9,025 nucleotides of DNA, taken from NCBI GenBank assembly GCA_025774615.1, contig JALGVQ010000182.1:1-9025 (forward strand). Reading direction: 5' to 3'. The stretch is from a bacterium (lineage in GTDB: Bacteria; Blakebacterota; Blakebacteria; Blakebacterales; Blakebacteraceae). Numbering within the stretch: position 1 is the first letter of the stretch; the number at the start of each line of letters is the position of its first letter. The notes under the pieces are model-generated. The model had not been told where the DNA came from, searched no databases, and saw only the letters and a program-made list of their open reading frames with translations. Below, piece after piece: positions 4,720 through 9,025 of this stretch. Both the position numbers and the translations under genes were made by a program.

Positions 4720-4764
4720 TTCGAAGAGTCCAGAGACACCCTGAAGGAGCCGGAAACAACATGA
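4717..4764 (+). CDS. Possible 15-residue leader peptide upstream of the glutaredoxin gene
   Basis: A short open frame begins at ATG 4717 and reads [15 protein letters not shown]. Its stop TGA (4762-4764) overlaps the glutaredoxin start as ATGA. AGGA at 4706-4709 stands 7 bases before its ATG, so it could be translated and coupled to the next gene. Against it, if GATAAT at 4708-4713 is the -10 box, transcription would start after the ATG. A chance ORF of this length is common, so it is listed only as a candidate. Confidence 0.2.
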   Translation: MFEESRDTLKEPETT

Positions 4765-5009
4765 AGGTCATGCTCTACGCCCTCAGTACCTGCGCCTGGT
4801 GCCGGCGGATCAAGCGTTTCTTCAATGAGAACGAGGTCGAATACGACTTCGTGGATGTGGATCTGCTGGAGGGAGATGAAAAACAGCAGAGACGGACAGA
4901 GTTGAAGGAATGGAACCCGAAAGGATCGTATCCAACGGTCGTGATCGACAACGAGAAGGTCGTGATCGGGTTCAACAAGGACCGCCTGCGGGAGGCACTC
5001 GGACTATGA
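4761..5009 (+). CDS. Glutaredoxin-like thiol-disulfide protein
   Basis: This is a compact cytosolic thioredoxin-fold protein of 82 residues, about the normal size for bacterial glutaredoxin or NrdH-like proteins. The first beta strand KVMLYAL leads into the dithiol active site C11-A-W-C14, followed by the basic stretch RRIKRF. The cis-proline is P58 in SYPTVVID, and IGFN (69-72) replaces the usual glutaredoxin IGG-type turn. CAWC is not the standard CPYC, which may shift redox potential or partner. AAGGAG at 4744-4749 lies 11 bases before the ATG. Its stop overlaps the next start (ATGA). It is therefore probably made together with the iron-sulfur disulfide reductase that follows and is a natural substrate candidate for it; that partnership is inferred from gene order. 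A glutathione-dependent role is possible but not shown. Confidence 0.87.
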
Positions 5010-5566
5010 GCGAAGAACATTCCGACGCGGCGCGCACACTGTATGAGAGACTGAAGAGCGAGGCTGAGGCGGCAGGGTATAACCTCAATCCCGACGTCGA
5101 TTTCGTCCTCGATCTGATGGAGGGGCTCCTGAAGAACGAGGAACGCTACGGTTACCAGGCCTGCCCCTGCCGCCTGGCCGATGGAACGCGCGAGCAGGAT
5201 CTCGACATCATCTGCCCCTGTGACTACCGCGACCCCGATGTGGGTGAGTTCGGGGCATGCTATTGCGCGCTTTACGTCTCAGAAGAGATCGCCGGAGGGG
5301 AGAAAGAGGCTGAACCGGTGGCCGAGCGCCGGGGAACACCGGCCGCCAGGGGATGGGGCCCGATGAAGAAACGGGGCGGGACCGGTACTACCGCCGGAGA
5401 ACCCGGCGACAGCGATGACGATGTTGACCACCCCTGTCTGGCGTTGCACCGTCTGCGGCTATCTGTGTGCCCGTCCGCAGCCCCCGATGAAATGCCCGGT
5501 CTGCCACGTGGACCGGGATCGCTTCGAGAGGTTCGGCTGACCGCACCTCTTCCTGAACAGCATTAA
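5006..5566 (+). CDS. Ferredoxin:thioredoxin reductase-type catalytic subunit (4Fe-4S disulfide reductase), C-terminus probably out of frame
   Basis: FTR catalytic chains take single electrons from ferredoxin through a [4Fe-4S] cluster and reduce a disulfide in a thioredoxin-fold partner. The first 108 residues are a full FTR domain: C53-P-C55, C70-P-C72 ([13 protein letters not shown]) and C85-Y-C87 (FGACYCALY). By analogy with plant-type FTR, C55 and C87 would be the redox pair and the other four would hold the cluster. ATG 5006 overlaps the glutaredoxin stop; an in-frame ATG at 4910 lies inside that gene and is not likely. After VAERR (105-109) comes a Gly/Pro linker with an acidic stretch SDDDVD. 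From 5435 the read frame gives an unconvincing Leu/Pro/Arg-rich tail of 43 residues (186 in all). The +1 frame over the same bases encodes a rubredoxin-like domain. Removing one C from 5431-5434 gives a clean 177-residue fusion ending at 5540. No FTR alpha chain is visible. Confidence 0.88.
5415..5540 (+). CDS. Rubredoxin-like domain in the +1 frame (displaced C-terminus of the reductase, or overlapping small gene)
   Basis: In the frame one base ahead of the FTR frame, ATG 5415 or ATG 5421 opens a reading of 41 or 39 residues. It contains [10 protein letters not shown] and [15 protein letters not shown]. The arrangement C-x2-C-G-Y, twelve residues, C-P-x-C and an aromatic end is that of the rubredoxin-like domain found in rubrerythrins, which binds one iron by four cysteines. 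The first Cys codon is at 5445. There is no well-placed Shine-Dalgarno sequence (GGAG 5396-5399 is 15 bases from ATG 5415), so independent translation is doubtful. The domain is more likely the true C-terminus of the FTR protein, joined by a one-base change in the C4 run at 5431-5434 or by a ribosomal +1 shift at CCC-TGT. Confidence 0.6.
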
Positions 5567-5570
5567 AACA

Positions 5571-5602
5571 GAAGCCGCTTCAGGTGAACGGAGCGGCTTT
5601 TT
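5571..5602 (+). terminator. Rho-independent terminator of the glutaredoxin/FTR operon
   Basis: AAGCCGCT (5572-5579) pairs perfectly with AGCGGCTT (5592-5599). The loop is closed further by a T-G wobble and a C-G pair (5581/5590). Five T follow the stem (5598-5602), then CTT. It lies 5 bases after the TAA at 5564-5566 and 31 bases after the alternative TGA at 5538-5540, and serves either reading. Confidence 0.9.
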
Positions 5603-5666: not shown

Positions 5667-5734
5667 CAGGAGCCTGTCGGAGATACACTCCGGCTGCTGC
5701 TTTCGCTATCGTCGGATTCTCCGACAGGCTCCTG
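5667..5734. repeat. Perfect 17-bp inverted repeat with 34-base loop
   Basis: CAGGAGCCTGTCGGAGA (5667-5683) is the exact inverse of 5718-5734. Two smaller hairpins compete with it: CGGAG/CTCCG (5678-5682, 5688-5692) and GTCGGA/TCCGAC (5711-5716, 5720-5725). No T tract follows, so it is not a standard terminator for the + strand. It ends 17 bases before ATG 5752. It may be a 5' UTR structure, a dispersed REP- or MITE-like element, or part of a bidirectional transcription stop. No flanking target duplication was seen. Confidence 0.7.
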
Positions 5735-5751
5735 TTGATTATCGAGATTCA

Positions 5752-8700
5752 ATGGCAAGAGACCCGTCATATCAACGGAGACCGGGAGTGGCGAACCTCC
5801 CACCGATGATCGCGGCAGCCATGACAGCCCTGCTGCTGGGATTCTCTGCAGGGACGCGTGCCCAGTCGACCGGCCTCTCCGTGACCGAACGCCTCCGCCT
5901 CAAGGCTCCCCTGGAGGAGACCGATCGTCGCGCCTTCTTCAGGTCGGCGGACGCGACCGACCGGGCAGTCGCCCCAATGGATCACAGCCGGCTGTCCGTC
6001 TACACCTACAACCTCGGCCTCACCACCGGCCGGATTTTCTCCTCGGGGCGCGGAGCCTACCCGAACGAGGAGGGAACCCTGCGCGCCTTCTACTTTGTCT
6101 CGGCGCCCGCCTTTGCCGTCGAAGCCGGCCCCTGGCACCCGAATCCAATGGTCCATGAGAACTCCGATTACCACTCACTCTCGAAGATCGACTGGGAGGC
6201 GAAGGATGGATCGCGCGGGACGCTCTTCACCCAGCCTCAGATCGGAGGCTACCCGTTAATGGCCATGACCGATCTGCCCGCGACCTGGACGTATCTGACT
6301 GGTGGCTGGCCGGCCCCTGAAGAGGTGGTCGAGGTCTGGCTCGGGACGGACACCTGGCACAAGTGGGAACGGCGGATGCAGCGCGAGACATATGGCATCT
6401 TCGATGACACATACGCCGACCGGGAAGGACGGGGAGATTCCATCCCCCTCGGCATCGAGGTGCAGTTCCGGGCCCTCACGAACAAAGACGACGATATCGT
6501 CTACTTCCAGTACGAGTTCACGAACACCTCCAGCAATCATTTCACCGGGGTGTACCTGGGTCAGATCGTCGACTCGGGAAGTCCGACCACAAACGACTTC
6601 GAGGGGGCATTCCTCCGGTATGACCAGGAACTCCCACTCCTGTATGCCGTCAGCGCGCACTACGACCAGGAATCGGGCTCACACACCCGACCATCCACCG
6701 GTGAAACGGTGTCATGGGTCGGGACCATCTGGCTCGATACACCCACCGGTTCCTGGAAGATGAGTGAGTCCGGACCCCGCTGGTACTCCTATTCGGAGAA
6801 CCCGTCGCAGATCCTCACGCGCGTCGCCCTGCTCGACTGGGATGATCGTATCCTTTCCAGCGAACCGTCACTGTACGGCGCGATGTCGGGGGATGTCTCC
6901 CTCATGGAGCCCTCCGAGGCCGACCGGGTATGGAAGACCGGCCAGCACGGGGGTGTCCCGGTCCTGAAGCAGACCGAGGAGGATTACAAGGCCTGGAATA
7001 CCGACTGGGAAAATAACTCAGACCTCTTCTACTACGTCGCCTCGGGGCCGGTGAATATGCCGCCGGGGACGACCCTCGACTATGTGTTCGCTATTGTGGG
7101 TGGCTATACCGAAGGGGAGATGCGGGCCGAGGCCGCCCGCGCTATTGAAGTGTATAACGACCGGTTCATCACCTCTTCCGTACTACCGGCTCCCAGGGTC
7201 ACGGTGAACGGCGTCAAAGCCGGACCGCACGGCAGGGAGTACGATCCCCGCATCCATAATTATCCCATATTCTACGCCCCATCCGGCCGGGTCACCCTCA
7301 ACTGGGACGGCCAGTTCATCGAGAGGGCGCTCGACGCTGCCACCCGTGAAGCAGATTTCGAAGGATACCGTGTCTACCGCTCCTCCGACCGCGGCCTGAC
7401 CTGGGGCGCTCCCATCCATGACCCGGAGGGGCGACGGGTCGGCTGGGTCCCGGTGGCGCAGTTCGATCTGGTGAACGGGATACGGGACACCGATCCGATC
7501 GGTTACCGGCACCTGGGAGATGACACCGGGATACGGCACACCTGGACTGATACAACGGTATTCGACGGCCTTGAATACTGGTATACGGTGACCTCTTACG
7601 ACCGGGGTGTCCAGGATGATGAAGGGTGGGTCTCCGCCTCGCTGGAGTCACCGATCCCGGCGAATCCCAACGCGCCCTCTCTGGCAGGGGTGATCGCCGG
7701 GCCGAGACCGCCGGGGTACCGGCCGGGCGGCTTTGCCGACGGAGGAGATGTGGGCGGATTCCGTGTCCTGCTCCCCGCCGCTGATGAACGCTCGACGGCG
7801 ATCGGGGTGCGGTTGGTGGAAGAGGATGCCCTCACCGGGGGTTCATACCAGGTCGATGTCCACGATCATTACCAGAAGATCATTCACCATCTCCACGGGG
7901 TGACCGATCGCTTCGATTCGTTTGAGCGGGGCGGGATCGAGGTCTGGATCATACCCGCCGGCGAGTACAGGATCGGCCCCCAGCGATGCGACTCCCCCGG
8001 TCAGGGATATGGCGCGACCGATATTCTGACCGGCTTCCGGGTGGAAGTCTCCCAGCCCAACGATGCCAACGGCGGCATATACTCCTTCACGCAGACGACC
8101 GATGCCGGCACCGGCGCAGGATTTACGGTTCTGACAGCCGACGCCACCTACGCCTCGGTCTCGGATGGATCGAACAGGGCGAACCTCACCGGCTTCATGA
8201 ACGACCTGGAGGTCAGGTTCACCGGGTTCGCTCCCGGCGGGAGTGACACAAATCGGGCCCACGACGCCATCACACGCGGTCCCGTACCGATCCCCTTCGA
8301 ACTATGGGATATCGAGAGTGATATCCGGCTCTACCCGGTGATCATCGATTCCGCCTCGGTCGGGACCCAGTACGATCAGGGGAGCAGAGCGGGTGAATGG
8401 GATGGCCGGGACCACATCTTCGTAACCACCGAGCCCTATTTTGATGAAGGCGGCGAAGTGGTTGATTTCTCCACCCTTCATCCGGCCTCGGCTGACAGCT
8501 ACTGGGTGGAGGACGCATCTGCACCCGCCAGCCGGTCGGACTGGATCTACCGGCTGGCATTCTATGAGAGAGACAGCACCCACACCCGCTGGGATGCCGG
8601 TGATATCTGGGCCATCAAGCCGTATCAGACCCTCAAATACCATGCCGGTCAGAGTTTCGGATTCAACACCGTCCTCCCGGCGACCGAAGAGGTGGAAAAC

Positions 8701-9025
8701 AACCTGGACGGGGTGACCGTCGTCCCGAACCCCTACTACGTGTACGCGGAATGGGATCGGGGAGAGGGGGAGCGGAAGATCCAGTTCCGGAACGTCCCGG
8801 CCAACTCCACCATCCGGATACTCACCCTCTCCGGAGAGCTGGTGGCGATCCTCGATCATCACGGGGACGCAACCGCGGTTGCCGGTAATCGCGGCTACAA
8901 CAGCAACCGGGTCGGAACGGTCGACTGGAACCTCTGGTCGTACGAATTCATGGAAGTCTCATACGGTCTCTACATCTACATCGTGGAGACCGACGACGGC
9001 CGGCAGAAAGTCGGCAAGTTCGCCA
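5752..9025 (+). CDS. Large secreted beta-rich protein with FN3-like segment and probable C-terminal sorting domain (3' end cut by window)
   Basis: One frame stays open from ATG 5752 to the window edge (1091 full codons, no stop). The N-terminus has arginines (R3, R9, R10), a hydrophobic core MIAAAMTALLLGF (19-31) and a likely signal peptidase I site TRA|QS after residue 37. GTG 5788 is an alternative start with GGAG at 5777-5780, spacing 7, but its n-region has no basic residue. The mature part is rich in aromatic, Gly and Asp residues with only one cysteine seen (C746). An FN3-like piece runs about 537-612 (EGYRVYRSSD to YTVTSYDRG). Near the end VVPNPYY (990-996), then FRNVPANSTIRILTLSG and YGLYIYIVETDDG resemble FlgD-like/type IX C-terminal domains; VGKFA (1087-1091) suggests the stop is only a few codons away. 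I do not recognise a catalytic domain; function is unknown, surface or extracellular location is inferred. Confidence 0.85.
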   Translation, partial: MARDPSYQRRPGVANLPPMIAAAMTALLLGFSAGTRAQSTGLSVTERLRLKAPLEETDRRAFFRSADATDRAVAPMDHSRLSVYTYNLGLTTGRIFSSGRGAYPNEEGTLRAFYFVSAPAFAVEAGPWHPNPMVHENSDYHSLSKIDWEAKDGSRGTLFTQPQIGGYPLMAMTDLPATWTYLTGGWPAPEEVVEVWLGTDTWHKWERRMQRETYGIFDDTYADREGRGDSIPLGIEVQFRALTNKDDDIVYFQYEFTNTSSNHFTGVYLGQIVDSGSPTTNDFEGAFLRYDQELPLLYAVSAHYDQESGSHTRPSTGETVSWVGTIWLDTPTGSWKMSESGPRWYSYSENPSQILTRVALLDWDDRILSSEPSLYGAMSGDVSLMEPSEADRVWKTGQHGGVPVLKQTEEDYKAWNTDWENNSDLFYYVASGPVNMPPGTTLDYVFAIVGGYTEGEMRAEAARAIEVYNDRFITSSVLPAPRVTVNGVKAGPHGREYDPRIHNYPIFYAPSGRVTLNWDGQFIERALDAATREADFEGYRVYRSSDRGLTWGAPIHDPEGRRVGWVPVAQFDLVNGIRDTDPIGYRHLGDDTGIRHTWTDTTVFDGLEYWYTVTSYDRGVQDDEGWVSASLESPIPANPNAPSLAGVIAGPRPPGYRPGGFADGGDVGGFRVLLPAADERSTAIGVRLVEEDALTGGSYQVDVHDHYQKIIHHLHGVTDRFDSFERGGIEVWIIPAGEYRIGPQRCDSPGQGYGATDILTGFRVEVSQPNDANGGIYSFTQTTDAGTGAGFTVLTADATYASVSDGSNRANLTGFMNDLEVRFTGFAPGGSDTNRAHDAITRGPVPIPFELWDIESDIRLYPVIIDSASVGTQYDQGSRAGEWDGRDHIFVTTEPYFDEGGEVVDFSTLHPASADSYWVEDASAPASRSDWIYRLAFYERDSTHTRWDAGDIWAIKPYQTLKYHAGQSFGFNTVLPATEEVENNLDGVTVVPNPYYVYAEWDRGEGERKIQFRNVPANSTIRILTLSGELVAILDHHGDATAVAGNRGYNSNRVGTVDWNLWSYEFMEVSYGLYIYIVETDDGRQKVGKFA

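Follow-up and report, generated by a model that had tools for sequence, protein, structure and literature searches.

A glutaredoxin-like gene is followed at this locus by an ORF in which an FTR domain is read in one frame and a rubredoxin-like domain in the +1 frame. Does this break reflect an error of the assembly, a true mutation, or a use of both frames by the cell? We analyzed the locus within the whole stretch of 9,025 nucleotides, hereafter called the window. An earlier note on this DNA had proposed four options for the break, namely a sequencing error, a mutation, a programmed +1 shift, and two proteins made from one message.

Gene organization and reading frames

The assembled ORF (5006..5566, plus strand) starts at ATG 5006, ends at TAA 5564-5566, and encodes 186 amino acids comprising the FTR domain, a linker, and an out-of-frame tail of 43 residues. 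The FTR catalytic (FeThRed_B) domain covers residues 16-103 (5051..5314, plus strand). It contains the complete CPC-x14-CPC-x12-CYC motif, scored 74.3 bits to Pfam FeThRed_B (PF02943, cut-off 22), and was also supported by alignments with PDB entries 4TPU, 7PWE, and 2PVD, of which 7PWE contains the FTR-only type of domain.

A rubredoxin-like domain of the rubrerythrin type is present in the +1 frame at 5433..5540 (plus strand, including the stop TGA 5538-5540). It matched RUBY_RBDX with 53.6 bits (cut-off 26.5, E 1.5e-14) and was recovered at 5439-5528 by the whole-genome search; thus, the domain is far beyond chance. The C-terminal CxxC...CxxC motif had been described as CTVCGY, twelve residues between the second and third Cys, and CPVC, and this is what we observed. 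Skipping one base at CAC-CCC yields a 177-residue fusion that ends at 5540, so that both the 186-residue ORF and the fused product of the earlier note were reproduced, as was the location of the two domains in different frames of one ORF. No single continuous frame for both domains exists in the assembled gene, because its linker contains one base too many (net +1). Conservation of the 43-residue tail, regarded in the note as an argument against a broken fusion, was not found: the tail had no Pfam match, and its frame is not continued in the fused gene of any relative.

The upstream gene (4761..5009, plus strand) overlaps the FTR ORF by 4 nt (ATGA) and encodes a glutaredoxin-like (Grx-like) protein of the NrdH/YruB type with CAWC as its CxxC motif (Pfam Glutaredoxin, 47.7 bits). 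Its best NCBIfam match was the YruB-type glutaredoxin at 55.3 bits, which is below the cut-off of 88.55. Past both stops, a possible transcription terminator (AAGCCGCT...AGCGGCTTTTTC) was read by eye at 5571..5602 on the plus strand; a pattern scan gave this hairpin on the minus strand only.

Similarity to ferredoxin:disulfide reductases

The fused 177-residue read aligned end to end, through residues 2-176, with PDB 4TPU (173 residues, Methanosarcina acetivorans; E 2.4e-55), which we take to be the structure of a ferredoxin:disulfide reductase (FDR). The two share the domain order, the length class, and all Cys residues of the FTR and rubredoxin domains, but the window gene has the net +1 base in the linker and a different linker sequence. 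The FTR-rubredoxin fusion had been given in the earlier note as the architecture of the Methanosarcina enzyme, and the match of 4TPU to the whole shifted read, together with the in-frame fusions of relatives, agrees with this.

According to PMC6262447, FDRs are Fe-S enzymes that occur in archaea and bacteria and are related to the FTR catalytic subunit, and one of them reduces a thioredoxin-like protein. The paper also cites structural work on FDRs, and its reference list names an FDR supplying electrons to class III ribonucleotide reductase. As the literature names an FDR with that role, a glutaredoxin partner would be reasonable here. Most relatives, whether fused or FTR-only, have a Grx-like ORF immediately upstream, and judging from this gene order the Grx-like protein is likely the redox partner of the reductase. 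By analogy with the family, the intact enzyme would receive electrons from a low-potential ferredoxin, or from its rubredoxin domain, at a [4Fe-4S] cluster adjoining the CPC/CYC active-site pair, and this pair would reduce the disulfide of the neighboring glutaredoxin in two one-electron steps. With this locus, an FDR-type enzyme and its probable glutaredoxin partner are added to a bacterial phylum that has been little sampled and is represented here by four genomes.

The FTR-rubredoxin fusions of L008, from a Chloroflexota draft genome (NJBK01000046.1), and of L009-L014 showed about 72-76% identity to the window gene over both domains. The nearest relative was L008, with 85% identity in the FTR domain and 88% in the rubredoxin domain. 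These genes are continuous ORFs with linkers such as VGFTRSGMPVWRC, whereas the window gene is broken. FTR-only proteins with an upstream Grx (e.g. L120-L128) resemble the window gene in the end of the FTR domain (P-E/D-R-R-x) and in the Grx neighbor; unlike the window gene, they have no rubredoxin domain in any nearby frame and no long tail.

A selenocysteine FtrB (CxU) has already been listed (PMC9312934). It belongs to the same FTR family, but the window protein matched its model (NF041072) with only 59.7 bits, below the 160-bit cut-off, and has Cys instead of Sec at all motif positions. In the phylum of the L008 genome, the FTR-rubredoxin fusions L146 (G343:C10:74515-74985) and L149 (G455:C23:113519-113992) have an in-frame TGA in place of the second Cys codon of CYC (CY*GLYV), and a short hairpin that resembles a bacterial SECIS comes after it. 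Both are predicted to be selenocysteine FDRs, and, in contrast to the CxU FtrB, this rubredoxin-fused form may not have been listed yet. Another fusion, L031 from Methanosarcinales, carries two tandem and nearly identical rubredoxin domains.

Occurrence of the fused form in related genomes

We searched the whole genomes of three phyla with the fused sequence, in which a frame-broken copy would give two rows, as the window gene does. In-frame fusions were found in 6 of 17 genomes around G006, full-length in-frame fusions numbered 20 among 198 genomes around G019, and 21 in-frame fusions were present in the 301 genomes surrounding the draft genome of L008 (Chloroflexota). The rubredoxin domain was out of frame in none of the 47 fused genes of these surveys, and no pair of rows indicating a frame-broken copy appeared. 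About 28 further genomes around G019 have a naturally shorter FTR-only form, and in one genome (G213) the two domains are separated by a contig break, each being located at the end of a different contig. The best 80 database relatives were also all in frame; this ranking is biased to intact copies and serves as supporting evidence only. A separate rubredoxin gene at this place, which the note had set against a broken fusion, was found in no relative examined: at ten FTR-only loci of the genomes around G019 (L119-L128), none of the frames in the 700 nt downstream encoded a rubredoxin domain, with the restriction that L119, which belongs to G213, is truncated by the end of its contig.

The gene was not found in G001-G003, and a search of viral contigs gave no relative. 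G001, the closest genome and a member of the same genus, has an assembly gap exactly at the locus, as its purQ-VTT contig ends before the locus and the next homologous contig begins inside the following gene. Its lack of the gene is thus uninformative, and the intact gene is seen in no near relative. In G002, another gene follows VTT.

Coding constraint on the rubredoxin frame

Compared with the seven nearest relatives, 133 of 197 nucleotide differences in the rubredoxin part (68%) fell at third codon positions, and the corresponding value for the FTR part was 159 of 219 (73%). All four Cys of the rubredoxin domain and nearly all of its invariant residues are kept; the only notable departure is His167, at which nearly all others have Lys or Arg. 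The third-position bias, the identity to relatives, and the retained Cys indicate that selection at the protein level acted on the rubredoxin frame until very recently, or is acting on it still. An old pseudogene remnant, in which the rubredoxin part has long been dead and drifting, is therefore extremely improbable. The identity of this part to relatives is slightly lower than the trend predicts (seventh lowest among 83), as such a remnant would show, but it is within the range of intact genes, the third-position bias is undiminished, and the frame contains no stop and all of its Cys.

Position of the frame change and other breaks in these drafts

The break had been assigned to the CCCC run at 5431-5434. 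This run is a plausible candidate, but other positions fit as well. A stop TGA at 5364 closes the rubredoxin frame, which is open only from 5367 onwards, and the linker before Pro-Val-Trp, which is conserved from 5433, is variable among relatives. Thus, a +1 change at any point in 5367-5436 fits, and this variable linker (5367..5436, plus strand) holds the net change if it is single. The window is rich in G or C runs of at least four; therefore, adjoining such a run lends little weight to the CCCC site. Codon usage leaned weakly to the 3' part, at about 5411-5444, where the likelihood is nearly flat; localization by codon usage is too noisy at this length, and it favored the third frame at about 5328-5376 and the wrong frame at 5460-5514, for which homology decides.

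We ran a home-made gene-finding HMM on 366 kb of the genome to look for further frame breaks. Because most of its flags fell on normal ATGA overlaps or at the ends of contigs, and the break in the window itself escaped it, only candidates confirmed by Pfam or homology were used. The same draft has at least two further breaks in conserved genes. One is in ccmF (L186, G000:C34, about 6500, minus strand), of which the two halves are read in different frames and match positions 21-127 and 173-283 of the CcmF_C profile. A paralog of the gene downstream of the FTR ORF (L209, G000:C117, about 8284) goes out of frame close to the C-terminus, at AGATCAGATC, a tandem repeat of five bases; the C-terminal remainder is encoded in another frame with 77% identity. 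In G001, a VTT-domain gene (L205, G001:C126, about 386) is likewise split over two frames. Isolated indels are thus general in these drafts. The contig sizes suggest a short-read assembly, in which an indel error at C4 is uncommon.

Evaluation of explanations for the frame break

Use of both frames by the cell, in whatever arrangement, is improbable. One such arrangement is a programmed +1 ribosomal frameshift at CCC-TGT that yields both the FTR-only and the fused protein. The rubredoxin frame is still under coding constraint, as expected if it is translated, but the 47 fused genes of the whole-genome surveys all need no shift, the RNA following the site showed no stronger folding than shuffled sequences (z 0.27), neither a stop codon nor a Shine-Dalgarno-like sequence adjoins the site (GATGACGATGTTGACCACCCCTGT), and the linker, in which a signal would have to be located, is not conserved, so that there is no slippery site in common. 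The most telling point is the presence of further frame breaks in the same genome, and we consider the programmed shift very unlikely. An equally slight chance is given to a gene split, in which the rubredoxin domain is made as a separate protein of 41 residues from an internal start. ATG 5415 and ATG 5421 are both in the rubredoxin frame, GGAGAA is present at 5396-5401, and the domain is intact. However, ATG 5415 is about 13 nt away from GGAGAA, which is a long spacing, the stop of the FTR frame (5564) lies beyond that of the rubredoxin frame (5538), which makes a termination-coupled restart impossible, and no separate rubredoxin ORF accompanies the FTR-only genes at the ten loci mentioned above. 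Taken more broadly, the production of rubredoxin-less and rubredoxin-bearing reductases from one message, through a lineage-specific +1 shift or an internal start and with altered electron uptake, is quite unlikely. A shift that is both real and used would bear on the contribution of the rubredoxin domain to FDR function, but our data gave no support for one.

Among the four options of the earlier note, the programmed shift and the two products are thus disfavored, and error or mutation is favored. We lean towards a consensus or assembly error of the draft genome as the source of the net +1 indel, with modest conviction. A recent true frameshift in the sampled strain is possible, at well under an even chance. 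In the case of a real shift, the cell would make an FTR-only protein that ends in a junk tail of 43 residues and lacks the rubredoxin domain; this product could still work, because FTR-only relatives exist naturally. Whichever of the two origins applies, the locus is very probably an ordinary two-gene operon for a Grx-like protein and an FTR-rubredoxin enzyme, and the indel in the linker is isolated and not programmed. Single-base breaks in draft metagenome genomes can mimic split genes or recoding and call for caution.

Flanking region

Between the FTR ORF and the next gene, the window contains an inverted repeat (5667-5734) with perfectly matching arms of 17 bp, CAGGAGCCTGTCGGAGA, and a loop of 34 nt. 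Its core, GGAGCCTGTCGGA, occurs once more (L179) in about 366 kb of the sampled genome. The following gene (5806-9024) encodes a long, secreted-looking protein that is 47% identical to its paralog on C117, and its C-terminus may resemble type 9 secretion sorting domains, judging from the residues present.
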